This document shows, piece after piece, positions 19,033 to 64,000 of a stretch of 64,000 nt of DNA. Position numbers and translations under genes: made by a program. This stretch comes from Loxodes magnus (taxonomy: Eukaryota > Ciliophora > Karyorelictea > Loxodida > Loxodidae). Location: contig CAMPDV010000198.1 of assembly GCA_946699065.1 (NCBI GenBank), positions 186,001 to 250,000 of the forward strand. The letters are read 5' to 3'. Under the pieces are notes generated by a model. That model was not told the DNA's origin and made no database searches. It saw only the letters and a program-made list of their open reading frames with translations. Within the stretch, counting starts at the first letter, position 1. Each line of letters starts with the position of its first letter.

Positions 19033-20033
19033 AGTTATAAAAGCCAACATAATATTTTCGATTTAACATTTAGATATGCAAGAGTAGTATTGATTAAGTT
19101 TACTTATAATGAGTAATAGCTTTGTAATTAATTGATATCATTTATAGTCACTATTTTAATTTAGCCATAAATATAGACTTTTGATACTATAACTTCTACA
19201 TGTTAACTTGTACTATTCTTATTTTAAGTACTATTTGCATTATAATCTATAGAACTAATTTTAGCTTTAATATTATATTTGAATATGTAATAGACAATAT
19301 TGTCTGCTACTTTGCTTAAATCTACCTACTCTATCTTTATACCTTATTTATATAAGATCTCCTTATTTATGATGCTATATAAGTAGACAATAAACTAACT
19401 TTTTCATTATGAGAAGAATCATTTTTGTATTAGAACAAGAGCCTAAAATATGAACAGATAGAGTATAGAATCAAAACTATAATAGTCAGTCATCTAATAT
19501 AGTGTGATCCATATTAAGGTAATTATAATGCTATGGTCTTAGCATTATTTCTTGTATGATATAGCAAAATGTTAAAAGTGCTTATATATAGTATCATAAC
19601 ATGAGTCTATTGTATATTTAGAATTTACTATATTTCTCTTCAGTTTGAAAAGTAAGAATTCAAGACCTTTAGAAATCTAAGGCAAGTAAAAAGGTTATAG
19701 ATATCTTCTATTTAACATCTTAAGGCAATTACTCTATAATTAAGTGACAGTGATAAACAATATTAGATCCTTTTGAAACTGCTAAAGTAGTTATACTCTA
19801 TCTAATGTTTAGATACCTTCACTATCATGATAATTAGAACTAGTACTCTTATGCCTTTATCTAGTATCTTTATAGAGTGATAATTAAAAAGAAGCTTAAC
19901 TAGCACTTAATCATGAAAGTCTGCTAGTTATTGTTCTTAATAGAAGCTTAATGGTTATTGGATGACTTAAAGTTAAAAGCTATCTACTCCAAGTTAGTCT
20001 TCCTATATACCTTAAGCTATAGCACTTTGCATT

Positions 20034-23000
20034 ATGTCTACTAAAGACTTTATAAGTTTAAATAGCTTTGGTTCGACTAAATTCTAAGAGTAGCCAATTA
20101 ATGCAATAAAAGGAAAAGAGTGGCTTCTGTGTATGGTTGGTTCTTAGTACTTTCTTATAAAGGGATAATAGTCTTAAAGCAACTGGATTCTTAATATATT
20201 GACTTGATTCTAAACTTAGCGAATCCCTGCAATAGTATTACAGTTAGCAGAAGCTGATACTTGATATCTTACTCCTAAATGATAAATTAGTGTGGTAGAT
20301 AAATAGCTTTATATATCACTAAAACTAAGCTTTCTAGATCTTACTAAACCATAAGCATATTAGATCTTATCATCATGGATAGAAAGCATTTTCAAGCTTC
20401 TTAATAGACAGCATTGTTGCTACTTCAAGTGGATAAGGAGTTTCCTAGTTGGAGTTATAATGTCAACTTATTAAGACAAAATTAGTAAATTTGATTAAAT
20501 AAAACTGAAAGTAATAGTTTTGGGATTAGTTCAAGTAAATAGATTAAATTGAAACCCTTTTTAGAAAAAAGAGAAAGGTAAAGTAATTTAGGCTTTTACT
20601 CTCCACTTTATTTTGAACTTATGTTTCCTTAAGTTCTAAAGCTAGAAACGATATCAGTTTTGCTTTAAATAATTGTAGTAACTGACAAACTTCATAAGAA
20701 TCAGTATATCAAACTATCTTTAATTACAATGCTAGCAATCTCTTTATAGCTCTATCCTTTAAGCTACAGCTAGAGGATTTAAAATACCTATAATCTTAAA
20801 CTTTACTACATTCTATTTAAAGCAACATTTAAGACTAAGTAAGAATACAAAGAGCAGGAAAGGGATAAGCTACTAGGATAGTTCAAATGATATATTTAGC
20901 AATATAAAGCAACCAAGCTATAATAGATATATCCTTCAATTGGATAAAATACACAGCAAACTTTAATATATAAAGCTTCTTTGGTATAACCAGTGAAGAG
21001 CACATTTTAGTTAATCCCTTAATAATGTTGCTAGATCATCCAGTTATTAGAGCTGGTGAGATTTTAGTGTAGAACTTTCTTAGCTTTTAAGTAAACTAGA
21101 AATACTCAGATTAGATTCACAATTCGAGATTTACTTAAAGATATTGTAAGTTTGACTTATACAGACGAATAATGTGAGTATTAAGTGGAAAATAATGAAG
21201 CTAAGCTTTAGCTAACCATAAGAATATAGAAATGAGTAGTTTTAAAGAAGCATTATACTTATAGCGTAAGTTATTTAAGGAAAAAGTAATCCAGATAGTA
21301 ATTAGATGGAGCTAATATGATACTACATTTACCTATTATGCTAATGAGTGTCTTGCCTTTTAACTGAGCTACTTCTAAGTCATAAAAGCTTATTACAAAT
21401 ATACAAACTCATACGGTCTAAAATCTACTAATTCTATACTTCAACACTCAAAGATACTCCATTAAAAGCAGCAAGCTTATGCAGATAGCCTTTAAATGTG
21501 TCATTTAATAATAAAAACGTTTAAGCATTCTAATATCATAAGAGTGTCAATATTTACTGATATATATCTCAGCTATTTGGAAAATCACTAAATACTTACA
21601 AAGTCTATAAATGCTAATAGCAGTAGTTTTGCTTTTCATAATTAAAGATACTCAGCTATCTGAAAATCTGATTTTGCTATCATAAAATAGCCTGCTATAA
21701 GTATGATTCATACAAACAGATCATCTTGTATAAGGGATTTAGAAAAGAGCTTCATAAGTCTTAAGGACTGAGATAGAAGTTTGAAACTATTCAATATCTG
21801 CTTAAATAAGCTAATTAACCTGCTAAAAAACCTCAAATTTAAGACTTAATTAGATGAGTGCAGTCATTTTGAGTTAGTTCTTTAAAATTAAAGTATCAAT
21901 TTAAGCTTTTTGTTAGTATAGTTACATATAGCTATGTCTGAGATATTCACCATTTTTGAAAGGAGATTCCCCTAGAAAGCTTTAGCTAAAACTGTAGAAG
22001 ACTCGATTGACTACATCTAAGAAGCAGAAAATACAGAAAAGCCAGATCTATAGAAAGCTTAGTAGTACAAATGGCAACATACATTTGTAGATTTGGCTAA
22101 TAAGAACCCTAGATAATATCCTATCTTTTCTACTAAAATAGACGTTCTTAAAAAATAGGATTTGGGCTTATTTATGTACTTTGATTTCCTCAAATGACTA
22201 TCTATTTGTCTGGCAATAATAAGTGCTAATAGCTTTTTCTTGATAGTGAGCAACTGAAAGGGAGAATGGTTTAATAAAAATGAGGTTAATTTCCTAGACC
22301 GTATTTCTATTGGAAATTTGGATTCAGGCACAAGTGAAATAGTAATTGAGGGCGCACATTCGCAAAGTTACCAAACTCTGTCAAAGTCGAAAGAATTTTC
22401 GCTATAAGAATACGAAAGCTTGATATCTGAAGACTATTATAAGTAGGAAGATGAACTTCTAAATAAGACAAAGAAGTATCAAGTTGCTTACTGTATTGTA
22501 GACTTTGCTAATTCTTTGGTTTTAATTTCTTTTATTGTTCTCTACTAGATAAGAATCAATAGACTTTTAAGAGAATATTAAGAAAAGGATTTTTAAATCC
22601 ATCAATATGCAGTGGAAGTATGTGCACTGCCTTCTGAAGGTATAACTGAGTAATAAGTTAAAGAATTTTTCCAGTAAAAATTCGGAGAGATTCATGAAGT
22701 ATCATTTGGTAGAAATTTCAAAGGACTACTTAAACTTTACTCACGAAAAGCTAAAATATAGCATGATATTTCCAGGCTATAGAGCTAGATGAACCAATTA
22801 GTAAACTAAGAGCCTAGTAAAGGATTATAAAAGCACATGTAAAAGCTATAGTCTAAAAAAGAAGATGTAAGCAAGTAGATAGATGAGATAATATAGAGAC
22901 ATAAAGAACTTAATAACTTCAAGATAGAAAGGGTTTATATAATATTCTAGTTTAAAGAGTCAAAAGATAAATGTTTCTAGTCTTATAATGCAAACTTTAA

Positions 23001-26000
23001 AATGCTTTAGCCATAAAATTTAAGATGATAAGGTAAAATTCCTCTGCAAGTGAATCATGTTGAAGTACCTGAGAATATATGTTGAGACAATTTAGAAAGC
23101 AAACATAAGAAAATTAGAAAATTCTTTTCTTATACTTTAATGGCTCTGGTTCTAGCTTTGATGTTGATAGTGGTACAAATTATGAAATTTCAATAGACCA
23201 GGATTTAAACAAAGGAAGATTGCTATATTCGTTTCAAAAAAATTGAAGATAAAACTGGGTTTTAAATACAAGAGTTTTCTATCGAAGTAGCATCTAAAAC
23301 TTTTATTTATAATGATGAAACTTATTTCTGTTGGTGTTTGTTTCAAAGTGCAGATGAAATTTTTATCCAGCATACGAAAGTTTCAGACTTCTGTGATAAT
23401 TTTAAAAAAGCTATTTAGAATGACATTCTATGAAAGCTTACTATCTGTGGTAGTATTATAATATTAGGCTTCTTAACTAAGATAGTATTTCTATAATCCA
23501 CCAAACTTGAAAAAATCCACAATGTTGGGTAGCTAAATAGATCAATAATGGTTAAAATATTCATCATTTCCTTTATTAGTATGGCATTTATAACTCTCAT
23601 AGTTAATGCTAAGAAATATGGGGATTTTACGAGAAAATGATACCTAGAAGTCGGAAATCCTATTACCCTAACCATATTTTCGTGTATTATTTCACCTCCA
23701 CTAACCAATTTAATCGTCTGACCTTTCTAAGTTTTAATATAAAGGAGAAAAGCAAAGAGAGCTAAAACTTAATTAGATCTAAACAGAACTATGGTAGGAC
23801 CTATTTTTGATATAGCAGTAAATTACTCTTAGATACTAGCCATTCTCTCTACTTCTTTAGTGTATTCAGCTGCTATTCCTTCTTTAATAATTGCAGTCTT
23901 TATTGTCATAGTTTTTATCTACTGAGTAGACAAAATTTTACTTCTTAGGCTTTATGGAAAACCTAAAAAGGTTTCCATTTGAATTTAGAGTAGAATTCTA
24001 AGGGTTCTTTCTTTCATTGTCGTTATTCACGCAGTCTTTACTATACTTACATATGGCAGTTAAGACATTTTCCCCTTAAAATACGAGAGTTGCATAAAGG
24101 ATTTCCATAATCAGTACTTTTGATATGATCTTGATGCAGCATAAGAGTTGAACAAAGTTCAGACAGTGAAGCATTAATTGCTTCGATAAGATTGTGGATG
24201 TTCGTAACATTTGTTGGAAAATGGCGAATGTGAGGTCTAATGTAATACTGTAGCTTGCAATTTCGATAACGGAGACTGTTTATGTGGTGATTAGAATTGT
24301 AACTTGCAGTAAAAAGGGAATGGAATTTGCGAAGAAGCTTGTGATAATTTAGACTGCGAATATGATGGGGGAGATTGTGAATCAAATACGATTGAGGAGA
24401 AAGAAGATTATTGTAGTCCAGGCTGCCAGTGAAAGAATGTAAATGACGGAATTTGTTAACAAACTTGCTTCAATTGAAGTTGCCATTGAGACGGACTTGA
24501 TTGCTACTGTGATATCAATAAGAAATGCTTTGTCACTTAAGTCGGAGATAAATGATGTGATCCTGATTGTAATATTATAGAATGTTCATATGACAATGGA
24601 GATTGCATAGGCTTTTAACTAGAGTAAACTGAAGATTTAAAAAAAATATATAAAAAGCTAGCGATTCAGGATGCTTGTGACGTTGAATGCACTTATGAAA
24701 TGAGAAGCAATAATAAATGCGATCAGAAATGTGATAATTACGCTTGCTAATGGGATAATGGAAAATGTTGAGATAATTACTATGATTATTTTTGCTTCAA
24801 TAGATAAATTAAAAACGGTTGATGTGATTTAACTTGTAATAATCCTTAAAATAACTTTGATGGAGGTGACTGTAATTATTATAATCAGTACATTGAAGTC
24901 AACTCTACTCACTGTTAGCCACAATGCTACTGAGATTAAGTAGGTGATGGAATTTGTTAATGATCTTGCTTCAATATTTTTTGCTTGTATGATGGTTAAG
25001 ATTGTGAGTAGTCTCACTGTGATAGTGAATCAGAATGCATAGGTAAACTCATAGGGGATAACATTTGCTAGCAAGACTGTTTCACTGAGAAATGCTTTTA
25101 CGACTACTTTGATTGTGTATCTCATAATAAGAATATAAATCTAATGGGTGCAAAAGAGTGCAACTAGAAATGTAAGTGAAAGTAAGTAGGAGATGGAAAA
25201 TGTCAAAGTCACTGCAATCATCCTAATTGCAACTATGATAATAACGATTGCTAGACTTGCGATAAAGAATAGAAATGCTTAATTTATTTCATAAATGATA
25301 GCTTTTGTGATAGTTTTTGCAATAATCCTGAATGTTAGTTTGATGGATTGGATTGTGAAGCAGGAAATACTTAAATTTAAAATTAAAAAGTACATTGAGA
25401 TGAAAAAATTTGTAGAGAACATGGTTGCAAATTGTTTTGATTAAGTGACGAAGTATGTGACGAATAATGCAATATTGAGGAATGTTTCTTCGATAGATCA
25501 GATTGTTCATCGTGTCCTGATAACTGTCCATCTGCTTTTATTGGAGATGAGTTTTGTGATTTAAGTTGCTACAACTAAGAGTGTGAGTGAGATAGGGGAG
25601 ACTGCTAAAATTATTCCAATCTATATAACGAAACGTTATGTACATTAAACGACTGCAACTCTAAAAATTTAGATGATTTAATCTGCGACCCAGAGTGTAA
25701 TATCGAAGCTTGTAACTTTGATAACGGGGCCTGCAAGCTTTAAAAAGTAGATTAAGGAGTTAAATATTATTATGAAAATGTTCTAAGATGTGCAAAGGAA
25801 AACTCTATATGGGATAGGTTTAATAGCTATCCTGGATATTTCAATATGACGATAATTTTAACTATAATCATAGTATAGCTATGAATTGTATTCTTCTTAA
25901 ATAAAATCTAGCATAAGAGATCTTAAGTAATGCCTGAATAAGAAAAAAACTCTTTTGCTGCAAGTAAGATTTTAATTTAGGAAAGCACGAAATAAAAAAG

Positions 26001-27724
26001 TAAAGCTAAGTCTCTTATAATCTATATAACAACTCAAAATACGCTTAGTTTCTATAAGAGTGCTTTCCTTAGACATAGGAAGATTAAGAAGCTGCTTACA
26101 AATCTAATTCTGGCTTTACCTAAAGATAAAATTTATAATTACTTGATAAAATTTCTTATAGAGATACTAATAAGCCATAAAAGATCGATTTCTTCAATTA
26201 GCAAATAGGGAATAAGTAGATATAAAAACTAATAACAACTAGACAAAGCGAAGAGAGCTATGAAGTATTTGTGCAACCTAATTTAAATTATAAAAATTAG
26301 TAGCAAAATGATCAAACTACTGTGCTTGAAATAGAAGAATATATCTCAGAAAGATAAGATTATGAAATGAAGGATGAAAACTTAATCTCTTAGAAAGATT
26401 TTCTAAGGAAACAATGAAATCCAATTAACTACAAAAGTTTAGTTATTTCAATTTTACTTAAATCTTATCTATAAATAGATCTTAAGGGTGTATAATATGT
26501 ATTAGAGTAAAATTAATAATAGAAAGTAAAACAAATGTCTTTTCATAGTTTACTATAACTTACCATTTATAAGGCATTAGATTAATATAATATTATTTTT
26601 TACTATTTTAGTCTATTTTTACTTAATTTAACTTTGATGCTCCTTCATTTTACTGTTTGCTTGTTAAACTTTAAGGAAAATCCAAAATATCTTTGAGTAT
26701 CTTTTTAATGCTTAATTACTATTTAGTATATTTTTAATCTACTATATAAAGACACTTAAAGTTACTCACTAATACTAAAGATTTATTTGACCTCTAAAAC
26801 ATCAAAGTATGAATTCTATTAGAAGATTACCTTGTATGTTCAATCATCTTAAAATTAGGTTTAAATTAGTTTAAAATTAGGTTAAGTTAGATTATTATTA
26901 GCAGTATAAAAGTTTCAATAGCTGCTTTAAAGTAGCTCATATATATCTTAGTATACTCAATATACTAAAAGTATATCCATCTAGTTAATTTTACTTTGTT
27001 CCCTAGCATGCACTTAGCTTTATCTTGAAAAGGCAGCTTTACCTTATATTCCAGCATTTGATGTAACCTTATTTTCAGAACTATTTCTACACTACTTTAA
27101 TCAATTAAAATAGCATACTTTTAAGAATGGAAAGTTGATTGAGGCAATTCCATAAATAGGAAGAATCTTAGTCTGAAGCACACTCCATTAAATGTTAATT
27201 TAAGTCCTTAAAATATAATAATTTCTTTAATTCACTTATAAGCAAAATTATGGAGGCTAGTATCTATAAAGCATAGTAACTCTATTAAAGGAGAGTAATA
27301 GAAATGAGAGGAGTTCTAAAAGCTAGAGTTAGTACTCAATGAAGTATTTCTACTTAGCTAAATGGTATAAGAGTCGTTATTCTACAATAAGATGAAATGA
27401 GAATATAGCTTGGTATCTAAAAAGGTACTCTTAACTGGTTATTTTGAATCAGCTTAAAGAACACTTATGCCTTCTAGCAAGCAGATTAAAGTAAGAGTAA
27501 AGAAAATAAAGACATAGCATTCTAAAGTACTTTAATAATAATGAAATAAGCATAAATACTTTATTTCTTCTTTATGCAATTATACCTAAAGTTTAGATCT
27601 CTCAGAATTACATATGTAAAGACTTATCTGATAAACCTATTTAAGTTAAGTAAATATAGTGTGTCTGCATTAGGAATTCGAATAATCAGGAAACTTTAGC
27701 TAATTTCAACCAAATAAACTAAAG
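20034..27724 (+). repeat. left arm of a 7.7 kb inverted duplication
   Basis: This arm matches the reverse complement of 37082-46112 at roughly 97-99% by eye in the stretches I compared, apart from a 1.34 kb insert present only in the right arm (37684-39020). It carries about 1.9 kb upstream of the channel gene, the whole gene, and 1.3 kb downstream. The outer breakpoint lies in TATGTCTAC at 20034-20042. The inner one is at 27720-27724 (AACTAAA). Confidence 0.88.
21934..26417 (+). CDS. OSCA/TMEM63-like channel with LNR repeat array, copy 1
   Basis: ATG 21934 to TGA 26415-26417 with one 17-nt intron (25964-25980, GTAAGATTTTAATTTAG) gives exactly 1489 codons. Order: TM near residues 80-105, TM ~190-210, a cytosolic RRM-like region of the TMEM63/CSC1 type (VEVCALPSEGITEQQVKEFF ... 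RVYIIFQFKESKDKCF), then further membrane helices including ILSTSLVYSAAIPSLI and WVDKILLLRLYGKPKK, which resembles the YS..IP/VDKYLLL region of OSCA channels. A ~550-residue Cys-rich part follows with 13 LNR (Notch-type) repeats of the form CDPDCNIIECSYDNGDC, then a last TM (IILTIIIVQLWIVFFL) and an acidic tail. The LNRs should be extracellular and bind Ca2+. Family assignment of the membrane part is by motif only. Confidence 0.72.
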
Positions 27725-30369: not shown

Positions 30370-30864
30370 TCAAGCCTTGAGAGTCTTTTGTACTAATTCT
30401 TCCTTCTCAATTGCAATAATTTCAACATGGCAATTTTAACTCAAATAGGGATTAATTCTACCATGCGCTCTATAAGTACGCCTTCTTCCTTTTTGTGCCC
30501 TATTTACTTGAACATGCCATATAATCAAGTTTTCAACATCAAGTCCTTTAACTTCTGCATTTGATTCTAAATTTTGTAGAAGATCTTGTAAAATTCTTGC
30601 TGATTTTTCAGGCCAAATACCTTAGGAAGATCCCCAGCCTTTAACTTAACCATGTCTTCCTATTCCTCCAGTGAACTTTCTTACTGGGACAATTTCTTTT
30701 TAATCAATCACATTCTGAACGTAGGATTTAGCTCTTTATAATGACATTCCTTTTAGTGCCTAAGCAGCCTCATGTGTGTTTTTGAAATGTACACGTAAAT
30801 CTGAGCCTCTTGTTCTGCAAGCTTTAGCTGGTACTTTAGGCTCGCGAGAATAGTTCTTTACCAT
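30370..30864 (-). CDS. RPL17: 60S ribosomal protein L17 (uL22)
   Basis: ATG 30862-30864 to TGA 30370-30372, 165 codons, no intron. The sequence is typical eukaryotic uL22: [20 protein letters not shown], then [60 protein letters not shown] and [19 protein letters not shown]. It lines the exit tunnel of the large subunit. The length (164) is slightly shorter than animal RPL17, mainly at the C-terminus. This well-conserved gene fixes the code: its Gln positions use TAA/TAG, its Trp codons are TGG, and TGA terminates it. Confidence 0.97.
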
Positions 30865-36489: not shown

Positions 36490-37081
36490 GTGTTAAATCT
36501 TTTAATTAAAGTGCTTAGCAATATTGATGGTTTATTCTACTAAATTGTAAAATTATATAGAAGGAACTTAAGCATAAAAATAAGTTTATACTATTGATAA
36601 TTTAATGTGACTAGAACTATAATAAAGTTTAAAATAATTAAAAACAAAAAACTTTATTACAACTACCTCACCCCTTACAGTACCCTTTCTTAAACTTTAA
36701 TTTGCTTTCTTGCTACTCAAACATGCTTAAAGTATTGCAAACTTAAAAATGATATTTAATTGATCAAATTATCTTAAACTTATCTTAATTAACTTAATCT
36801 TATTTTATCTTAGTTTAGCTTTAATTTAAGTAGACTTTCAAATATCTTTGATGGTAACTTAAAAAGATATGCGAGCTTCTCTGTTTTAGTGAATTAGTCC
36901 AAGTTTTGATTTCTTATAGAATCCTGATTCTGCTTTTATAGTAATTTTATCCAAAGGCTTTGTTCTATATTTAGTTTCTAAATGAAAAGGTCTAGATTGT
37001 TAAATAAAAAGCATACATTTGTTAATTTCTTTCATTCTACTTTTAAACCTTAAAATACTAGAGTTAATCATTTAAACTCAT
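36490..37081 (+). repeat. ~600-bp repeat A, inner copy
   Basis: This block is the reverse complement of 50990-51655 at perhaps 85% identity (for example TTAATGTGACTAGAACTATAATAAAG near 36603, and the stretch around GGTCTAGATTGTTAAATAAA near 36990). The two copies sit at the two ends of the right-hand half of the structure, like terminal inverted repeats of a ~15 kb unit (36490-51655). Confidence 0.7.
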
Positions 37082-37683
37082 TTAGTTTATTTGGTTGAAA
37101 TTAGCTAAAGTTTCCTGATTATTCGAATTCCTAATGCAGACACACTATATTTACTTAACTTAAATAGGTTTATCAGATAAGTCTTTACATATGTAATTCT
37201 GAGAGATCTAAACTTTAGGTATAATTGCATAAAGAAGAAATAAAGTATTTATGCTTATTTCATTATTATTAAAGTACTTTAGAATGCTATGTCTTTATTT
37301 TCTTTACTCTTACTTTAATCTGCTTGCTAGAAGGCATAAGTGTTCTTTAAGCTGATTCAAAATAACCAGTTAAGAGTACCTTTTTAGATACCAAGCTATA
37401 TTCTCATTTCATCTTATTGTAGAATAACGACTCTTATACCATTTAGCTAAGTAGAAATACTTCATTGAGTACTAACTCTAGCTTTTAGAACTCCTCTCAT
37501 TTCTATTACTCTCCTTTAATAGAGTTACTATGCTTTATAGATACTAGCCTCCATAATTTTGCTTATAAGTGAATTAAAGAAATTATTATATTTTAAGGAC
37601 TTAAATTAACATTTAATGGAGTGTGCTTCAGACTAAGATTCTTCCTATTTATGGAATTGCCTCAATCAACTTTCCATTCATAA

Positions 37684-39020
37684 CCAAATTCTTCCTATAG
37701 CATCAGTGGGAGTTTTATTCCTCTTCATTTCTATTAGCAAGCGCAGAAAGAGTTGGAGGCTTAATAGTTCCAATTCTAGTGATTTTCTTCAAACTTAATA
37801 TCAAACTGGCAGTTCCCTTATCTAAGAGTGTAATGTTTGGATGTTGTAAGCAACTTTATTAACTGTTAGGAAAGACATCCTTAAGCTAATAAACCTTAAA
37901 TAGATTTTAATCCAATCAATCAGAAAGTGGCTAAAACTCATCTATCAAGCTTAAGGAAGACTCTAACTTCTAAAGTAAAGAACTAATTAAAGCAAAGGAA
38001 GATAATTAGGACAACAAGCAACTAATGGAGATTATCTAAAATTAAAAAATGCTTCCCTAGTAGAAAGTTTTCTGGCTGCTTATGAATTTAGTTCAAATAG
38101 AATCAAACTGAATGAAAGAAGGAGATTTAGTCTATTATAGGAATTTAATAATGTAGCACAGAATATTGGCTCATTTTTATATTGACTATAGTAATTTGCT
38201 TTGTACTGATGTTTTACAACTGTAAGCATCTTAATCATGAAAATAAGATAAAAAGAGATAACTTTTATTAGGTAAATTCTTAAAGAACTTAGTGAACTTT
38301 TTACACTGCTAGTAATCTTTTATTTTAGTTAAGTGAAATAGCGTAGCTTTATTGGCAGGTATCCTTGCAGGATTTCTAGGTATTGGAGAAAAAATGAAAA
38401 TAAGTTCTTCGCTACTAGAAATGAGCCTTCTCCCCAAAATAGCCTCTTCAACTTGAGCGTTTTTAGTTCTGCTCACAATTTCTTCAACTTCCATCTAATT
38501 CTTCATACCAAGAATGCTAGATTTTATAGTTTATTTTTGGTCCATTTAATTATAAAATCTTGCCTCATATGTGCTTATTCTTTTACAGCTAACTCTTCTG
38601 GAATCCTCTTTTTTATTTGCATTAATAGTGGATAAAATTGTAAGAAGACCTCGAACTTGATTTACCGAAGCATAATCTTGTTTATCTTAATGCATTAACT
38701 TCTAAGCCAGTCTGTCTTGATTGCTTTACTCTAGTTCAAAGCATTTAGTATAGTTTAAGTACTATCTTACTTATAGCTTCTGAAACAGTATATAAATAGC
38801 TTATAAGATTGATGTATTTATCCTCTTTACATTGATTTTTCTTTTTATATTTGCTTGCTATTTTAGCCCAAAAGGGAATTATAATCCAAGCTTATTTATC
38901 TTGGTAAATGAATAATCTACTTAATCTACTTATTATAAAAGATAGCTTTGGTCTCTTTCTTTATTCCTTTATATTAAACTTGGTTGGATTAAGATATTAA
39001 GTCTAGCTAACTAGTTACCT
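37684..39020. mobile_element. 1.34 kb insert in the right arm only (or deletion in the left arm)
   Basis: In the left arm CATACTTTTAAG runs straight into AATGGAAAG (27100-27130). In the right arm the same two flanks are separated by ~1.34 kb. I find no clear target-site duplication or terminal repeats, so the type of event is open: insertion, internally eliminated DNA, or loss from the left arm. It carries a complete-looking gene start. Confidence 0.5.
37690..38832 (-). CDS. unrecognised protein inside the right-arm insert, 3' part unresolved
   Basis: From ATG 38830-38832 a minus-strand frame reads MQRGQIHQSYKLFIYCFRSY, then NALNQSKAIKTDWLRSQCIK and KKRIPEELAVKEQAHMRQDF. A short intron near 38487-38500 (GTATGAAGAATTAG, 14 nt) would continue into MEVEEIVSRTKNAQVEEAIL and SPIPRNPARIPANKATLFHL. 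Another protein-like piece in the same strand lies near 37700-37800 (LKKITRIGTIKPPTLSALAN), so further introns are likely. I recognise no family. The gene has no counterpart in the left arm. Confidence 0.5.
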
Positions 39021-39727
39021 TAAAGGTATGCTATTTTAATTGATTAAAGTAGTGTAGAAATAGTTCTGAAAATAAGGTTACATCAAATGCTGGAATATAA
39101 GGTAAAGCTGCCTTTTCAAGATAAAGCTAAGTGCATGCTAGGGAACAAAGTAAAATTAACTAGATGGATATACTTTTAGTATATTGAGTATACTAAGATA
39201 TATATGAGCTACTTTAAAGCAGCTATTGAAACTTTTATACTGCTAATAATAATCTAACTTAACCTAATTTTAAACTAATTTAAACCTAATTTTAGGATGA
39301 TTGAACATGCAAAATAATCTTCTAATAGAACCTATACTTTGATGTTTTAGAGGGCAAATAAATCTTTAGTATTAGTGAGTAACTTTAAGTGTCTTTATAT
39401 AGTAGATTAGCACTATAACAAACAGTAATTAAGCATTAAAAAGATACTCAAAGATATTTTGGATTTTCCTTAAAGTTTAACAAGCAAACAGCAAAATGAA
39501 GGAGCATCAAAGTTAAATTAAGTAAAAATAGACTAAAATAGTTAAAAATAATATTATACTAATCTAATGTTTATATATAGTAAGCTATAGTAAACTTATG
39601 AAAAGACATTTGCTTTACTTTTTATAATTAATTTTACTCTAATACATACTATACACCATCAAGATCTATTTATAGATAAGATTTAAGTAAAATTGAACTA
39701 ACTAAACTTAGTGTAATTAATAGGGTT

Positions 39728-42700
39728 TCATTGCTTCCTTAGAAAATCTTTCTAAGAGATTAAGTTTTCATCCTTCATTTCATAATCTTATCTTTCTGAG
39801 ATATATTCTTCTATTTCAAGCACAGTAGTTTGATCATTTTGCTACTAATTTTTAAGATTGAAATTAGGTTTCATAAATACTTCAGAGCTCTCTTCGCTTT
39901 GTCTAGTTGTTATTAGTTTTTTGATCTACTTATTCCCTATTTGCTAATTGAAATTATCGTTCTTTAATAACTTATTAGTATCTCTATCAGAATTTATATC
40001 AAGTAATTATGAATTTTATCTTTAGGTAAACCCAGAATTAGATTCATAAGCTGCTTCTTAATCTTCCTATGTCTAAGGAAAGCACTCTTATAGAAACTAA
40101 GCGTATTTTGAGTTGTTATATAGATTATAAGAGACTTAGCTTTACTTTTTTATTTCGTGCTTTCCTAAATTAAAATCTTACTTGCAACAAAAGAGTTTTT
40201 TTCTTATTCAGGCATTACTTAAGATCTCTTATGCTAGATTTTATTTAAGAAGAATACAATTCATAGCTATACTATGATTATAGTTAAAATTATCGTCATA
40301 TTGAAATATCCAGGATAGCTATTAAACCTATCCCATATAGAGTTTTCCTTTGCACATCTTAGGACATCTTCATAATAATATTTAACTTCTTAATCTACTT
40401 TTTAAAGCTTGCAGGCCCCGTTATCAAAGTTACAAGCTTCGATATTACACTCTGGGTCGCAGATTAAATCATCTAAATTTTTAGAGTTGCAGTTGTTTAA
40501 TGTACATAACGTTTCGTTATATGGATTGGAATAATTTTAGCAGTCTCCACCATCTCACTTACACTCTCAGTTGTAGCAACTTAAATCACAAAACCCATCT
40601 CCAATAAAAGCAGATGGACAGTTATCAGGACACGATGAACAATCTGATCTATCGAAGGAACATTCCTCAATATTGCATTATTCGTCACATACTTCGTCAC
40701 TTAATCAAAAAAATTTGCAACCATGTTCTCTACAAATTTTTTCATCTCAATGCTCTTTCTGCTTTTTACTTTAAGTATTTCCTGCTTCACAATCCTATCC
40801 ATCAAACTAACATTCAGGATTATTGCAAAAACTATCACAAAAGCTATCATTTATGAAATGAACTAAGCATTTCTGTTCTTTATCGCAAGTCTAGCAATCG
40901 TTATTATCATAGTTGCAATTAGGATGATTGCAGTGACTTTGACATTTTCCATCTCCTACTTACTTTCACTTACATTTCTAGTTGCACTCTTTTGCATCCA
41001 TTAGACTTATATTCTTATTATGAGATACACAATCAAAGTAGTCGTAAAAACATTTCTCAGTGAAACAGTCTTGCTAGCAAATGTTATCCCCTATGAGTTT
41101 ACCTATGCATTCTGATTCACTATCACAGTGAGACTACTCACAATCTTAACCATCATACAAGCAAAAAATATTGAAGCAAGATCATTAACAAATTCCATCA
41201 CCTACTTAATCTCAGTAGCATTGTGGCTAACAGTGAGTAGAGTTGACTTCAATGTACTGATTATAATAATTACAGTCACCTCCATCAAAGTTATTTTAAG
41301 GATTATTACAAGTTAAATCACATCAACCGTTTTTAATTTATCTATTGAAGCAAAAATAATCATAGTAATTATCTCAACATTTTCCATTATCCCATTAGCA
41401 AGCGTAATTATCACATTTCTGATCGCATTTATTATTGCTTCTCATTTCATAAGTGCATTCAACGTCACAAGCATCCTGAATCGCTAGCTTTTTATATATT
41501 TCTCGTAAATCTTCAGTTTACTCTAGTTAAAAGCCTATGCAATCTCCATTGTCATATGAACATTCTATAATATTGCAATCAGGATCACATCATTTATCTC
41601 CGACTTAAGTGACAAAGCATTTCTTATTGATATCACAGTAGCAATCAAGTCCGTCTCAATGGCAACTTCAATTGAAGCAAGTTTGTTAACAAATTCCGTC
41701 ATTTACATTCTTTCACTGGCAGCCTGGACTACAATAATCTTCTTTCTCCTCAATCGTATTTGATTCACAATCTCCCCCATCATATTCGCAGTCTAAATTA
41801 TCACAAGCTTCTTCGCAAATTCCATTCCCTTTTTACTGCAAGTTACAATTCTAATCACCACATAAACAGTCTCCGTTATCGAAATTGCAAGCTACAGTAT
41901 TACATTAGACCTCACATTCGCCATTTTCCAACAAATGTTACGAACATCCACAATCTTATCGAAGCAATTAATGCTTCACTGTCTGAACTTTGTTCAACTC
42001 TTATGCTGCATCAAGATCATATCAAAAGTACTGATTATGGAAATCCTTTATGCAACTCTCGTATTTTAAGGGGAAAATGTCTTAACTGCCATATGTAAGT
42101 ATAGTAAAGACTGCGTGAATAACGACAATGAAAGAAAGAACCCTTAGAATTCTACTCTAAATTCAAATGGAAACCTTTTTAGGTTTTCCATAAAGCCTAA
42201 GAAGTAAAATTTTGTCTACTCAGTAGATAAAAACTATGACAATAAAGACTGCAATTATTAAAGAAGGAATAGCAGCTGAATACACTAAAGAAGTAGAGAG
42301 AATGGCTAGTATCTAAGAGTAATTTACTGCTATATCAAAAATAGGTCCTACCATAGTTCTGTTTAGATCTAATTAAGTTTTAGCTCTCTTTGCTTTTCTC
42401 CTTTATATTAAAACTTAGAAAGGTCAGACGATTAAATTGGTTAGTGGAGGTGAAATAATACACGAAAATATGGTTAGGGTAATAGGATTTCCGACTTCTA
42501 GGTATCATTTTCTCGTAAAATCCCCATATTTCTTAGCATTAACTATGAGAGTTATAAATGCCATACTAATAAAGGAAATGATGAATATTTTAACCATTAT
42601 TGATCTATTTAGCTACCCAACATTGTGGATTTTTTCAAGTTTGGTGGATTATAGAAATACTATCTTAGTTAAGAAGCCTAATATTATAATACTACCACAG

Positions 42701-44211
42701 ATAGTAAGCTTTCATAGAATGTCATTCTAAATAGCTTTTTTAAAATTATCACAGAAGTCTGAAACTTTCGTATGCTGGATAAAAATTTCATCTGCACTTT
42801 GAAACAAACACCAACAGAAATAAGTTTCATCATTATAAATAAAAGTTTTAGATGCTACTTCGATAGAAAACTCTTGTATTTAAAACCCAGTTTTATCTTC
42901 AACTTCTTTGAAATGAGCATAGCAATCTTCCTTTGTTTAAATCCTGGTCTATTGAGATTTTATAATTTGTACCACTATCAACATCAAAGCTAGAACCAGA
43001 GCCATTAAAGTATAAGAAAAGAATTTTCTAATTTTCTTATGTTTGCTTTCTAAATTGTCTCAACATATATTCTCAGGTACTTCAACATGATTCACTTGCA
43101 GAGGAATTTTACCTTATCATCTTAAATTTTATGGCTAAAGCATTTTAAAGTTTGCATTATAAGACTAGAAACATTTATCTTTTGACTCTTTAAACTAGAA
43201 TATTATATAAACCCTTTCTATCTTGAAGTTATTAAGTTCTTTATGTCTCTATATTATCTCATCTATCTACTTGCTTACATCTTCTTTTTTAGACTATAGC
43301 TTTTACATGTGCTTTTATAATCCTTTACTAGGCTCTTAGTTTACTAATTGGTTCATCTAGCTCTATAGCCTGGAAATATCATGCTATATTTTAGCTTTTC
43401 GTGAGTAAAGTTTAAGTAGTCCTTTGAAATTTCTACCAAATGATACTTCATGAATCTCTCCGAATTTTTACTGGAAAAATTCTTTAACTTATTACTCAGT
43501 TATACCTTCAGAAGGCAGTGCACATACTTCCACTGCATATTGATGGGTTTAAAAATCCTTTTCTTAATATTCTCTTAAAAGTCTATTGATTCTTATCTAG
43601 TAGAGAACAATAAAAGAAATTAAAACCAAAGAATTAGCAAAGTCTACAATACAGTAAGCAACTTGATACTTCTTTGTCTTATTTAGAAGTTCATCTTCCT
43701 ACTTATAATAGTCTTCAGATATCAAGCTTTCGTATTCTTATAGCGAAAATTCTTTCGACTTTGACAGAGTTTGGTAACTTTGCGAATGTGCGTCCTCAAT
43801 TTCTATTACACTTGTGCCTGAATCCAAATTTCCAAGAGAAATACGGTCTAGGAACGTTACCTCATCTTTATTAAACCATTCTCCCTTTCAGTTGCTCACT
43901 ACCAAGAAAAAGCTATTAGCGCTTATTATTGCCAGACAAATAGACAGTCATTTGAGGAAATCAAAGTACATAAATAAGCCCAAATCCTATTTTTTAAGAA
44001 CGTCTATTTTAGTAGAAAAGATAGGATATTATCTAGGGTTCTTATTAGCCAAATCTACAAATGTATGTTGCCATTTGTACTACTAAGCTTTCTATAGATC
44101 TGGCTTTTCTGTATTTTCTGCTTCTTAGATGTAGTCAATCGAGTCTTCTACAGTTTTAGCTAAAGCTTTCTAGGCGAATCTCCTTTCAAAAATGGTGAAT
44201 ATCTCAGACAT
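39728..44211 (-). CDS. OSCA/TMEM63-like channel with LNR repeat array, copy 2
   Basis: Mirror copy of the gene at 21934-26417: ATG 44209-44211, TGA 39728-39730, same 4484-nt span and same 17-nt intron (40165-40181). So it also gives 1488 residues and looks intact. A few substitutions change residues, for example in the second extracellular stretch (EVNFLDRISIG in copy 1, EVTFLDRISLG here) and around 40745-40780. Domain order is as in copy 1: membrane helices with an RRM-like cytosolic region, 13 LNR repeats, a final TM and an acidic tail. Both copies keep ~1.9 kb of shared upstream DNA, so both probably keep the same promoter. Confidence 0.72.
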
Positions 44212-46103
44212 AGCTATATGTAACTATACTAACAAAAAGCTTAAATTGATACTTTAATTTTAAAGAACTAACTCAAAATGACTGCACTCATCTAATTAAG
44301 TCTTAAATTTGAGGTTTTTTAGCAGGTTAATTAGCTTATTTAAGCAGATATTGAATAGTTTCAAACTTCTATCTCAGTCCTTAAGACTTATGAAGCTCTT
44401 TTCTAAATCCCTTATACAAGATGATCTGTTTGTATGAATCATACTTATAGCAGGCTATTTTATGATAGCAAAATCAGATTTTCAGATAGCTGAGTATCTT
44501 TAATTATGAAAAGCAAAACTACTGCTATTAGCATTTATAGACTTTGTAAGTATTTAGTGATTTTCCAAATAGCTGAGATATATATCAGTAAATATTGACA
44601 CTCTTATGATATTAGAATGCTTAAACGTTTTTATTATTAAATGACACATTTAAAGGCTATCTGCATAAGCTTGCTGCTTTTAATGGAGTATCTTTGAGTG
44701 TTGAAGTATAGAATTAGTAGATTTTAGACCGTATGAGTTTGTATATTTGTAATAAGCTTTTATGACTTAGAAGTAGCTCAGTTAAAAGGCAAGACACTCA
44801 TTAGCATAATAGGTAAATGTAGTATCATATTAGCTCCATCTAATTACTATCTGGATTACTTTTTCCTTAAATAACTTACGCTATAAGTATAATGCTTCTT
44901 TAAAACTACTCATTTCTATATTCTTATGGTTAGCTAAAGCTTAGCTTCATTATTTTCCACTTAATACTCACATTATTCGTCTGTATAAGTCAAACTTACA
45001 ATATCTTTAAGTAAATCTCGAATTGTGAATCTAATCTGAGTATTTCTAGTTTACTTAAAAGCTAAGAAAGTTCTACACTAAAATCTCACCAGCTCTAATA
45101 ACTGGATGATCTAGCAACATTATTAAGGGATTAACTAAAATGTGCTCTTCACTGGTTATACCAAAGAAGCTTTATATATTAAAGTTTGCTGTGTATTTTA
45201 TCCAATTGAAGGATATATCTATTATAGCTTGGTTGCTTTATATTGCTAAATATATCATTTGAACTATCCTAGTAGCTTATCCCTTTCCTGCTCTTTGTAT
45301 TCTTACTTAGTCTTAAATGTTGCTTTAAATAGAATGTAGTAAAGTTTAAGATTATAGGTATTTTAAATCCTCTAGCTGTAGCTTAAAGGATAGAGCTATA
45401 AAGAGATTGCTAGCATTGTAATTAAAGATAGTTTGATATACTGATTCTTATGAAGTTTGTCAGTTACTACAATTATTTAAAGCAAAACTGATATCGTTTC
45501 TAGCTTTAGAACTTAAGGAAACATAAGTTCAAAATAAAGTGGAGAGTAAAAGCCTAAATTACTTTACCTTTCTCTTTTTTCTAAAAAGGGTTTCAATTTA
45601 ATCTATTTACTTGAACTAATCCCAAAACTATTACTTTCAGTTTTATTTAATCAAATTTACTAATTTTGTCTTAATAAGTTGACATTATAACTCCAACTAG
45701 GAAACTCCTTATCCACTTGAAGTAGCAACAATGCTGTCTATTAAGAAGCTTGAAAATGCTTTCTATCCATGATGATAAGATCTAATATGCTTATGGTTTA
45801 GTAAGATCTAGAAAGCTTAGTTTTAGTGATATATAAAGCTATTTATCTACCACACTAATTTATCATTTAGGAGTAAGATATCAAGTATCAGCTTCTGCTA
45901 ACTGTAATACTATTGCAGGGATTCGCTAAGTTTAGAATCAAGTCAATATATTAAGAATCCAGTTGCTTTAAGACTATTATCCCTTTATAAGAAAGTACTA
46001 AGAACCAACCATACACAGAAGCCACTCTTTTCCTTTTATTGCATTAATTGGCTACTCTTAGAATTTAGTCGAACCAAAGCTATTTAAACTTATAAAGTCT
46101 TTA
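44212..46103. promoter_or_regulatory. shared upstream flank of channel copy 2
   Basis: About 1.9 kb duplicated together with the gene (partner 20034-21933). No gene is seen in it. Its retention in both arms is consistent with, but does not show, a regulatory role. Confidence 0.35.
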
Positions 46104-46796
46104 GTAGACATACTTCCACTGCATATTGATGGATTTAAAAATCCTTTTCTTAATATTCTCTTAAAAGTCTATTGATTCTTATCTAGTAGAGAACAATAAA
46201 AGAAATTAAAACCAAAGAATTAGCAAAGTCTACAATACAGTAAGCAACTTGATACTTCTTTGTCTTATTTAGAAGTTCATCTTCCTACTTATAATAGTCT
46301 TCAGATATCAAGCTTTCGTATTCTTATAGCGAAAATTCTTTCGACTTTGACAGAGTTTGGTAACTTTGCGAATGTGCGTCCTCAATTTCTACTACACTTG
46401 TGCCTGAATCCAAATTTCCAAGAGAAATACAGTCTAGGAAATTAACCTCATCTTTATTAAACCATTCTCCCTTTCAGTTACATACTACCAAGATAAAGCT
46501 ATTAGCGCTTATTATTGCCAGACAAATAGACAGTCATTTGAGGAAATCAAAGTACATAAATAAGCCCAAATCCTATTTTTTTAAAATTCTATTTTAGTAG
46601 AAAAGATAGGATATTATCTAGGGTTCTTATTAGCCAAATCTACAAATGTATGTTGCCATTTGTACTACTAAGCTTTCTGTAGATCTGGCTTTTCTGTATT
46701 TTCTGCTTCTTAGATGTAGTCAATCGAGTCTTCTACAGTTTTAGCTAAAGCTTTCTAGTCGGATCTCCTTTCAAAAATGTTTAATATCTCAGACAT
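46104..46796 (-). pseudogene. third, N-terminal fragment of the channel gene
   Basis: Starts with ATG 46794-46796 (MSEILNIFERRSDQKALAK, cf. MSEIFTIFERRFPQKALAK in copy 1) and follows the first ~230 codons. It stops abruptly where copy 1 reads GTGGAAGTATGT. A single-base deletion near 46582 relative to copies 1 and 2 shifts the frame after QYPIFSTKI. The 5' flank is unrelated to that of the full copies. It is therefore a truncated, frameshifted relic left by an earlier round of duplication. Confidence 0.85.
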
Positions 46797-50989: not shown

Positions 50990-51655
50990 TGGTATTTTAA
51001 GGTTTAAAAGTAGAATGAAGAAATTAATAAATGTATGCTTTTTATTTAACAATCTAGACCTTTTCATTTAGAAACTAAATATAGAACAAAGCCTTTGGAT
51101 AGAAATTACTATAAAAGCAGAATCTAAAAATCAATAGTAAAAAGAAGAATCAGTATTCTATAAGAAATCAAAAATTGGACTAATTCGTTAATATGGAAGC
51201 AGAGAAACTCGCATAGCATATCTTTTTAAAGTTACCATCAAAGATAATCAAAGATATTTGAAAGTCTACTTAAATTAAAGCTAAACTAAGATAAAATAAT
51301 ATTAAGTTAAAGTTAATTAAGATAAGTTTAAGATAATTTTAATAATTAATTATCATTTTTAAGTTTTCCAATACTTTAACCATGCTTGAGTAGCAAGAGA
51401 GCAAATTAAAGTTTAAGAAAATTCTTAGTGAGAAAGAGTAATGGAATAGGGTTAAGGCTTGAATGAATTGCGTAAGGGTGGAGGTAGTTGTTATAAGCTA
51501 TTTTGCTTTTAACTTTTTTTTTATTATTTTAAACTTTATTATAGTTTTAGTCACATTAAATTATCAACAATATAAGCTTATTTTTATTCTTAAGTTCCTT
51601 CTATTTTATTTTTACAATTTAGTATAAATTAATTAAACCATCAATATTGCTAAGC
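50990..51655 (-). repeat. ~650-bp repeat A, outer copy
   Basis: Reverse complement of 36490-37081, with more differences than the young arms show. Contains the same landmark words (AACAATCTAGACCTTTTCATT near 51050; CACATTAAATTATCAACAATA near 51552). Confidence 0.7.
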
Positions 51656-61938: not shown

Positions 61939-62439
61939 CTAATTTAAGTTCAGTTTTCAAAGTTTATCGCTTTTCTCTATACTTTCATACAGCTCCTTTG
62001 TTTATTATCCATGTCTCAAAGTAGTGTTGTAGACTACTACAAATATTAAAAAAAGGATTGCAACTCGAACGAAATTTTCTTTAATTTCTTTCTTAAACTC
62101 TTGCTGAATAGCTTGCTATTGTCTACGATTCTTATTCTGCTTCATTTTCAGCTTGTAATATCTCATGTCTTACTGAGTAAACGTTTCTTCGAATTTATTT
62201 TGCATAGGCCTTTATATATTAACTTGGATTTTAGGCTCTTATTCAGCTGTTAAACTCTTGTAAGCTTCCAAAATTTCTTTGAACTTCTGCGAATTTCCAT
62301 TAGTCTAATCAGGATGATATTACTTCGCTAAGGTATAGAATTTATCTTTTATTTCCTATTTACTAGCTGTTTAAGACAAGCCTAACGCTTGGAAAGGACC
62401 AACAGCAGAAAAGACTCTTTTAGACCACCTTGCCAGCAT
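61939..62439 (-). CDS. J-domain (DnaJ-like) membrane protein
   Basis: ATG 62437-62439 to TAG 61939-61941, 166 residues, no intron. A basic N-terminus (MLARWSKRVFSAVGPFQALG) resembles a mitochondrial presequence. The J domain follows at ~18-68: ALGLSQTASKQEIKDKFYTL, then AKQYHPDQTNG with the HPD tripeptide that stimulates Hsp70 ATPase, and KFKEILEAYKSL as helix IV. A charged linker leads to one TM near residues 126-140 (VAILFLIFVVVY). It is probably a short organellar DnaJ similar to small DNAJC proteins of the mitochondrion. The penultimate region uses TGA as Trp (KLWKLN) only 7 codons before the TAG stop. Confidence 0.88.
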
Positions 62440-64000
62440 GACTTTATAAATGAATTAAATGAATTTAAAAGAAGAAGTTTAGATTTACTATATTTAGCCA
62501 AGTATTTGCTTTATAAGCAACATACGACTTAACTACTAAGCTACTCCTACTTATTATTAACTCTATTATCAAAAATCCTTCTAATCTATATTTCTCAATG
62601 TGTATATAAATATATACCCTAACTATGACTTTTTCCTTATAATGAAAAAATCAATATTTTAGTGCAGCTCACTTTATTTTTATGTCATAAGACTATCTTT
62701 AGCATCATCAAACAGATAATCTAGAAATGATTTGCCTTATTATTAGATATCTTTATGAGATATTAATTAAGCAGATTCTTCTCTATATCTCTACTAATAT
62801 TTAACTAGGTTGTAGTAGTTCCTTATACCTTGCTCTTATGCCTAATCTTTTTAATTAGATTCAAGATTTGGTTACTTTAAAAGGCCTATAAGGAAGATAG
62901 AATAAGTAAGGTTATGAATAATATATTTGTGCACTTAGCCCTTTAACTTAGAGCTTAGCAGATATTACAGACTGTTGGTGACATTGGATTATAACTATTG
63001 CTTATGCATAGTTTTCATAAACAGTTCTAGTTTTGAAGTTTGCTATTGTCTATTTTCTTTTTGCTATATAATAAACTAATAGTACTTATATCTAAAAGCT
63101 TGAATCTGTATGATCTTTAGTAGTTCTCTGAGAGATTTTTTTAATGGGATATTAGATATAAAAAAGGATAAGATCTATAAGGGTAAAAGCTTATTTCTAA
63201 TATATAGAAAATAAGAATAATATGCTTCAGTGAGTGACTAGTTAAGCTCGGATTAATAACTGGCATTACAACACAGAAGCTATTTTAAATAGCTATCTCT
63301 TTAAATTTAGTTAAAAGACTCTATTATCAATCTTATAGTAGTCCGTTAAATAGTTAAACGAAGGTTAAAAATACCTTTCACTATATGAAAGAAAATATTT
63401 ATATATGTTAAGTCTTTGAACTAGCATTTGAAGATATCCTGGTAATTAATAATGGAATGATACAAACTCTACTACTTTGCTAAATGGATAAGTTTCACTC
63501 TAAGGATACAAAAGTTAAGGAAACAGGAGAGTAAATAATCAGCTGCTGAAGATTTGACAATGTAGTAGTTTATCTCTAACGTTACTTTTGCTGCTAATTA
63601 TTTAAATAATTAACTGAAAATTAACCTTAAGTTTCTATACAAAGCATAAGGAACAGACTTAGTTTATAATAGTCAAAATCTTATAATTAGTCTTCAAGCA
63701 CTCTAAGCATATTGCATGTGGTATATGCAAATCTTACTGTATACTAAAATCTAGACTCATTCAAATAAATTTAGTAAAGCGATACAAAGAAACTTATTAT
63801 ATCTAATTACAATCAAGTCTACTTGTCTTATAGATAGATATCTCTTTACCTAGAGTCAAGCATCTAATTACTCATAAGCTGATAATAAGATGCTACATAG
63901 CATAACTGATCTATTAACTAGAGTTCGAGGGGGCAAAAGCTGAAAGCTAAATTTCAAAGATCATCTCATTTTCTAAATTAGCTTCTCTAAGTCGTACAGA
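62440..64000. other. terminal gap
   Basis: About 1.6 kb of AT-rich, TAG/CTA-textured DNA to the window edge. No gene, RNA or telomeric repeat is seen. Confidence 0.5.

Follow-up and report, generated by a model that had tools for sequence, protein, structure and literature searches.

A 64,000-nucleotide stretch of contig CAMPDV010000198.1 (C198) of the ciliate Loxodes magnus, hereafter the window, carries a gene whose product very probably joins a TMEM63-type membrane part to an array of LNR (Notch-type) modules placed in the loop between transmembrane helices (TMs) 9 and 10. Searches of the Loxodes magnus genome covered 705,730,643 bases in 7843 contigs, of which the window is a part of C198. 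A TMEM63/CSC1-type membrane part with an RRM-like cytosolic loop had been proposed in an earlier reading of the window, made from its sequence only, and this was borne out by Pfam, by a profile search of the PDB and by profile–profile comparison. The hidden Markov model searches for TMEM63/CSC1 and LNR domains that this sequence-only reading had suggested as a check gave significant matches, and the lack of any TMEM63/CSC1 match, which it had named as the result that would speak against it, was not observed.

Membrane part and LNR array

The membrane part is, as judged from profile searches, a true relative of TMEM63/OSCA proteins. The window protein alone gave 23.3 bits for PHM7_cyt, and 24.7 bits when only its membrane part was used, both below the Pfam cut-off of 27; RSN1_7TM had no Pfam match in the window protein itself. 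Because the single protein scores below the cut-off, its PHM7_cyt assignment is secure only together with its family, in which PHM7_cyt was found in all nine paralogs scanned (best E 1.2e-12) and RSN1_7TM in five of the nine at E up to 1 (best 8.8e-5). Moreover, the paralog on contig C61 passes three Pfam cut-offs in one frame, with 28.2 bits for PHM7_cyt, 32.0 bits for RSN1_7TM (cut-off 28.7) and 129.4 bits for LNR. RSN1_7TM stayed below its cut-off in the members on C75 (21.4 bits) and C971 (19.5 bits).

When a profile of nine family members, three more distant subfamilies included (profile A3), was compared with the PDB, it matched TMEM63A (2.9e-15), TMEM63B (5.6e-10), entry 8k0b (1.6e-6), anoctamin-6 (2.9e-4) and the OSCA protein ERD4 (7.9e-4). 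The TMEM63A match lies mainly in the stretch from PHM7_cyt to TM3, with weaker pieces at TM1 and TM7–TM8, and the same search also returned the designed protein 6m6z (5.1e-6), RRM proteins (TDP-43 at 8.4e-4 and weaker ones) and other weak rows. In profile–profile comparisons the family aligned over 390 columns with five Loxodes TMEM63 genes that bear the additional helix TM0 (E 3.5e-12) and over 524 columns with six TM0-less, LNR-free genes (E 9.4e-37). The five TM0-bearing genes in turn match TMEM63B at 4.5e-37 and the solved structure of OSCA1.2 (6oce) at 1.2e-12.

Hydropathy of the window protein predicts ten TM helices (Table 1) and an extra weak hydrophobic peak at residues 1446–1464, and shows no hydrophobic segment in residues 1–75 that could be TM0. 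By eye, TM0 also seems to be missing in LNR-free relatives of the same branch. Since TM0 is missing, we speak of a TM0-less branch rather than of canonical OSCA proteins. Between TM3 and TM4 lies an extracellular insert whose four Cys are invariant across the nine LNR paralogs of profile A3. With TMEM63A/B/C of animals (CSC1-like proteins 1 and 2 among their names) the Loxodes protein shares the PHM7_cyt linker, the PE.I.W.NL motif at its end, TIxNLxT in the TM1–TM2 loop and the TM7–TM8 signature; it differs from them by the missing TM0, by the conserved TM3–TM4 Cys loop and by 13 LNRs between TM9 and TM10. Plant OSCA1.2 and ERD4 belong to the same superfamily by profile; the link is direct for ERD4 and runs via the TM0-bearing Loxodes genes for OSCA1.2. 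Eleven helices, TM0 among them, make up OSCA1.2, and apart from short linkers nothing structured was seen on its extracellular side, for which the authors cite flexibility (PMC6235563); the ectodomain of the Loxodes protein is large.

The LNR array gave 13 LNR stretches (PF00066) that reach 226 bits (cut-off 21.2; E 3.4e-68) in Pfam. A regular expression for LNR found 12 modules and one variant without a Cys; in 2000 residue shuffles the corresponding number was 0.26 on average and 3 at most, and chance patterns were therefore rejected. The 13 LNRs before the last helix announced by the sequence-only reading were recovered, in the TM9–TM10 loop, and its length of about 550 residues has to be corrected to 514 (residues 754–1267). 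Linkers between the modules alternate between short and long (6, 15, 7, 27, 8, 17, 10, 18, 8, 23, 6 and 16 residues), as if the modules were paired. The module at residues 954–980 lacks one Cys, and the same gap is present in the five paralogs compared. Of the D/N and two D positions, which we take to be the Ca2+ ligands of Notch LNRs, the first is kept in 13 of 13 modules, D30 in 13 of 13 and D33 in 11 of 13; these counts concern positions, and Ca binding is predicted. Thirty residues separate the last LNR from TM10.

In the PDB the best matches of the LNR region were Notch3 LNR structures (4.7e-10) and GNPTAB (1e-6). The Cys and D/N spacing is common to the array, the LNR region of Notch, pappalysin and GNPTAB, whereas in Loxodes 13 modules follow one another within one loop of a polytopic protein, for which Pfam reported neither an HD domain nor an EGF repeat. 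From homology with OSCA1.2, in which the C-terminus is inside (PMC6235563), the TM9–TM10 loop should face the outside or a vesicle lumen. LNR modules also occur on contigs, e.g. C143, C155 and C1305, that had no TMEM63-type locus among the matches listed.

Coding evidence, gene family and origin of the array

The ATG start at 21934 agrees with the paralogs, which begin with MAQIF or MAQIYE at the equivalent position. The frame is open solely when TAA and TAG are read as Gln and TGA as Trp, and 111 codons are so reassigned. According to the L. magnus genome paper, the species has code 27, where context decides whether UGA means Trp or stop, and its introns have a mean length of 19.3 bp, about 17–25 bp being found (PMC11441545). 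Because UGA is context-dependent and introns are this short, we treat 26415 as the end of the frame and not as an assigned stop. Of the span 21934–26417 claimed earlier, the start is retained and the end is not, since position 26417 completes a TGA that lies out of frame, whereas the frame itself ends at 26415.

Reading all stops as sense leaves every frame open, so openness is no evidence and separate coding tests are needed. Nine full-length copies, eight on C198 and one on C7791, retain the 4482-base frame with zero indels. In the comparison with L010, a diverged paralog on C170, synonymous change reaches saturation, with differences at 584 of 775 sites, and the nonsynonymous divergence (dN) is 0.28, with 0.30 in the membrane part and 0.24 in the LNRs. 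Wrong-frame controls in the membrane part against the same paralog gave ratios of dN to synonymous divergence (dS) of 1.07 and 1.47. On these estimates the frame is under purifying selection relative to L010, and the possibility that it is open merely from reading all stops as sense is rejected by dN, dS and the wrong-frame controls. Furthermore, when only partner codons that are not themselves reassigned were counted, columns with TGA held W in 29% of partner codons against a background of 0.9% (~32-fold), and TAA and TAG aligned with Gln ~5–6 times above background. This codon-column comparison supports the code 27 reading of the window gene. The LNR spacing, which far exceeds that of the residue shuffles, is a further argument for coding.

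Queries for homologous loci were the window protein, the membrane parts of the C61, C805 and C75 members and, in addition, the LNR-free gene L045. The LNR-type searches gave at least 129 distinct loci, and at least 167 loci on 83 contigs were reached after adding the L045 search; near-identical copies and fragments are included in these tallies. The tally used 31 of 106 rows for the window protein (TM-part match per locus), then 57 of 58, 58 of 59, 38 of 68 and 10 of 58 rows, omitted second pieces and rows already entered, and took 48 of 150 LNR rows; the numbers 129, 167 and 22 are lower bounds. When a 421-base stretch after TM9 was read in 11 loci of the LNR-type searches (L066–L076), every one of the 11 contained two to four LNRs in one frame. 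Among five loci sampled from the L045 search, L079 and L080 had LNRs, and L077, L078 and L081 had none in that sample. Among 37 loci found with two TMEM63 Pfam models (L021–L057, some of which belong to the same gene), seven had LNRs inside the stretch read: L026, L030, L031, L037 and L051–L053. No relatives of the LNR-TMEM63 gene were found in viral contigs or in the other, non-eukaryote contig collection, as expected for a ciliate gene.

The size of the array varies across the family from 6 to at least 37 modules. Pfam reports 13 LNR stretches in the window member, 10 in that of C170, 16 in C971, 6 in C61 and 15 in C75. At locus L065 (C805, 2446–6101), a TMEM63-type gene precedes an array of at least 37 LNR modules that seem to form alternating pairs; by pattern count, 7 of them lie in one frame and 30 in a second, and the array continues beyond the stretch read. 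We assume that both C805 frames belong to a single gene and that an intron or an indel separates them. The same architecture is present on other contigs at 23–58% identity, which rejects a chimeric assembly of two genes.

The closest relatives without an array are L045 (C10), L027 (C108) and L028 (C39), which have the same YxCWC loop between TM3 and TM4 and the TMEM63 domains, and in which no LNRs were found, TM9 reaching TM10 via a short loop. In a 26-row tree with a midpoint root and the five TM0-bearing genes omitted, the nine rows with LNRs group together as a clade (97/95); L028 stands next to it (91/89), then the pair of L045 and L027 (100/99), and 14 other TM0-less genes stand apart. 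An earlier tree without L027 and L028 gave the LNR clade 94/92. YxCWC is present in 12 of 12 rows of the inner group (LNR bearers, L045, L027 and L028), in 0 of 14 other TM0-less genes and in 0 of 5 TM0-bearing genes. Given the tree and this distribution, the Cys loop probably came first, and the array was then most simply inserted once in the TM9–TM10 loop, with expansion of the family afterwards. Several independent gains of LNRs were set aside because the LNR bearers form one clade, with which a single origin is compatible, if unproven.

The nine full-length copies are 89–93% identical in a search that counts stop codons as mismatches, and six of them are direct tandem copies with a spacing of ~10.95 kb at C198:269633–328921, beyond the window. 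Inside the window, a 6.4 kb inverted repeat (20033–26433 and 39712–46112, 99% identical) holds the entire gene together with ~1.9 kb upstream. More inverted matches connect pieces within 26435–27723 with pieces within 37081–39709. Among the nine copies, segregating nucleotides per 100 codons number 10.2 in the LNRs and tail versus 3.1 in the membrane part. There is 1 segregating site in the 1.5 kb upstream, and there are 33 in the last 94 codons and 846 in 1682 aligned columns downstream, which suggests that the 5′ part of the gene has recently been homogenised among the copies.

Possible functions of the LNR-TMEM63 protein

By sequence the gene product falls within the TMEM16/TMC/OSCA superfamily as a TM0-less type of its TMEM63/OSCA branch, and according to our model it would form a tension-sensitive cation channel. 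The LNR array may act as a stiff, Ca-rigidified rod, of 13 modules here, attached at its ends to TM9 and TM10 and perhaps supported by the conserved Cys loop that links the pore helices TM3 and TM4, which would be a natural coupling point. By engaging extracellular matrix, prey, cortex or vesicle content, the rod could transmit or tune the force on the channel; alternatively, the LNR ectodomain would bind a ligand. Mechanosensitivity is established for several OSCA/TMEM63 members (PMC6235560), and we regard the LNR-TMEM63 protein as probably a channel. The stretch-gated channel with an extracellular gating spring put forward in the sequence-only reading is likewise a hypothesis. Force coupling to it by the array is a tentative proposal, possible rather than probable, and the overall explanation of a tension-sensitive channel of the TMEM63/OSCA branch with a force-transmitting LNR rod is, in our judgement, evenly poised.

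Several observations weigh against this explanation. The OSCA plan of eleven helices including TM0, with the N-terminus outside, does not hold here, where ten helices are predicted, and the membrane part is very divergent, with 15% identity to TM0-bearing members in the profile alignment. Because TM0 is absent and the divergence is this large, the protein may no longer conduct or be gated by tension. Mouse TMEM63C gave no stretch current either (PMC6235560). Moreover, the pore of OSCA1.2 is lined by TM3–TM7, and the array-bearing TM9 and TM10 are not among these helices (PMC6235563). AlphaFold2 gave no usable model, either of the membrane part from two window copies (pLDDT 34.4) or of LNR residues 994–1142 alone (pLDDT 33.5). 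Among the near-identical copies dN/dS is 0.53–0.92 (15 of 36 pairs), only mildly below 1, and with such weak ratios single copies may be under relaxed constraint. In addition, LNRs are very abundant genome-wide, with 10,515 first-look candidates, 150 of which were scored. Since LNRs are generally abundant across the genome, the array may have an adhesion role that needs no gating. The main rival explanation is a channel gated by membrane tension alone, with LNRs for adhesion.

In another explanation the array is chiefly a ligand-binding or adhesive ectodomain of a family of surface receptors, and the TMEM63-like part serves as an anchor or as a channel opened by binding and not by force. The large family with its tandem copies, the higher variability of LNRs and tail than of the membrane part, the great differences in array length among subfamilies and the commonness of LNRs in the genome would all agree with such a receptor. 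However, conservation of the membrane part, RRM-like domain and TM motifs included, goes beyond the needs of an anchor, and variation climbs along the gene up to the 3′ flank, so that homogenisation of the 5′ part fits the variability as well as selection does. We consider this receptor rather unlikely.

It is improbable, in our estimate, that the membrane part is a lipid scramblase or another TMEM16/TMC-like transporter and not a mechanosensitive channel. TMEM16 and TMC proteins likewise have ten helices without TM0, the family profile reaches anoctamin-6, and PMC11534332 speaks of a potential to permeate ions and phospholipids that TMEM16 and OSCA/TMEM63 proteins share. Nevertheless, the anoctamin match does not exceed the OSCA/TMEM63 match: that of TMEM63A is eleven orders of magnitude stronger, and that of TMEM63B about six. 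PHM7_cyt, a marker of the OSCA/TMEM63 branch, also sets the Loxodes protein with OSCA/TMEM63 rather than with TMEM16/TMC.

Slightly less credence is due to the idea that the window copies are decaying recent duplicates or repeat-driven assembly artefacts with no function of their own. The near-identical copies, six of them in tandem, the truncated and inverted copies of the window and the weak dN/dS among copies would fit such a history, whereas the absence of indels in the nine full-length copies speaks against it. Even if single copies are artefacts, the architecture is not, because it is kept at 23–58% identity on other contigs.

In Notch, LNRs mask a protease site until force or ligand acts, and a comparable switch in Loxodes, with the array covering a protease site until force or ligand causes cleavage and sets the tail free, would be in line with Notch3 LNRs as best PDB matches, but it is very unlikely given that Pfam reported no Notch heterodimerisation (HD) domain, NOD or NODP (to E 10, with filters that drop most matches above ~0.1), that just 30 residues lie between the last LNR and TM10, and that the membrane part belongs to a channel type with ten helices. 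The sequence-only reading had invoked LNRs as force- or protease-gated folds; the LNR modules themselves stand, and the analogy with Notch is weakened by the missing NOD and NODP.

No paper on a fusion of LNRs with an OSCA/TMEM63 protein was found among the matches listed in the open-licence PMC literature, in agreement with the earlier statement that no channel of this kind has been described. A word search of the L. magnus paper found no mention of Notch, LNR, mechanosensation or gravity. Available sections of two reviews describe how Loxodes perceives gravity through Mueller vesicles, whose barium sulfate body is carried by a ciliary stick (PMC5460273, PMC10954788), and one of them describes the statocyst-like vesicle as unique to the family Loxodidae (PMC10954788). 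In these sections neither review names a channel protein for graviperception in Loxodes (PMC5460273, PMC10954788).

A role of the LNR-TMEM63 family in the Mueller vesicle is a guess to which we give hardly any credence: it would make the family the tethered mechanotransducer of the vesicle, with rods in the lumen, which is topologically equivalent to the outside, that couple the mineral body or stalk to the channel and with array length setting the sensitivity. If true, the OSCA/TMEM63 branch would, to our knowledge, gain its first channel gated via an extracellular tether that is part of the same polypeptide, and protist statocysts a first molecular candidate. More generally, this natural family, whose rods count from 6 to at least 37 predicted Ca-binding modules, could be used to ask whether a tension-gated fold becomes tether-gated. 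Its range of array lengths would also allow asking whether arm length tunes sensitivity, with the LNR-free L045, L027 and L028 as natural controls.

Coordinates and further features of the window

Table 1. Features of the LNR-TMEM63 gene and other elements of the window (positions count from the first base of the window; residues are those of the window protein; TM helices predicted from hydropathy)
Feature	Position	Strand	Remarks
LNR-TMEM63-like reading frame	21934..26415	+	1494 codons; tail may hold short introns
TM1	22180..22260	+	residues 83-109
IGNLD motif, TM1-TM2 loop	22309..22323	+	GNLD invariant in the nine members of profile A3; aligns with TIANL of TMEM63A
TM2	22477..22572	+	residues 182-213
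RRM-like cytosolic domain (PHM7_cyt, OSCA second intracellular linker)	22606..23091	+	residues 225-386; ends PENICWDN
TM3	23110..23205	+	residues 393-424
Extracellular TM3-TM4 insert	23221..23394	+	Cys C430, C466, C468, C487; YxCWC
TM4	23419..23511	+	residues 496-526
TM5	23530..23619	+	residues 533-562
TM6	23659..23742	+	residues 576-603
TM7-TM8 hairpin, RSN1_7TM signature region	23788..23961	+	residues 619-676, one long stretch read as two helices; ..YSAAIPSLI..YWVDK..
TM9	23968..24072	+	residues 679-713
13 LNR modules, predicted extracellular TM9-TM10 loop	24193..25734	+	residues 754-1267
TM10	25825..25914	+	residues 1298-1327
Predicted cytosolic tail	25915..26415	+	most variable region across the nine copies
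Ribosomal protein L22/L17e gene	30370..30864	-	PF00237, 2.1e-27
Second full copy of the gene (L004)	39730..44211	-	inverted; 53 residue differences from the + copy
Third copy, truncated	46103..46796	-	two pieces from the 5′ part of the gene only; 95-96% to the + copy
DnaJ-domain protein	61957..62523	-	PF00226, 2.4e-14

Elsewhere in the window, 36549–37031 and 51018–51612 share several short inverted repeat pairs (64–99 nt, 89–98%), which are perhaps a dispersed repeat.

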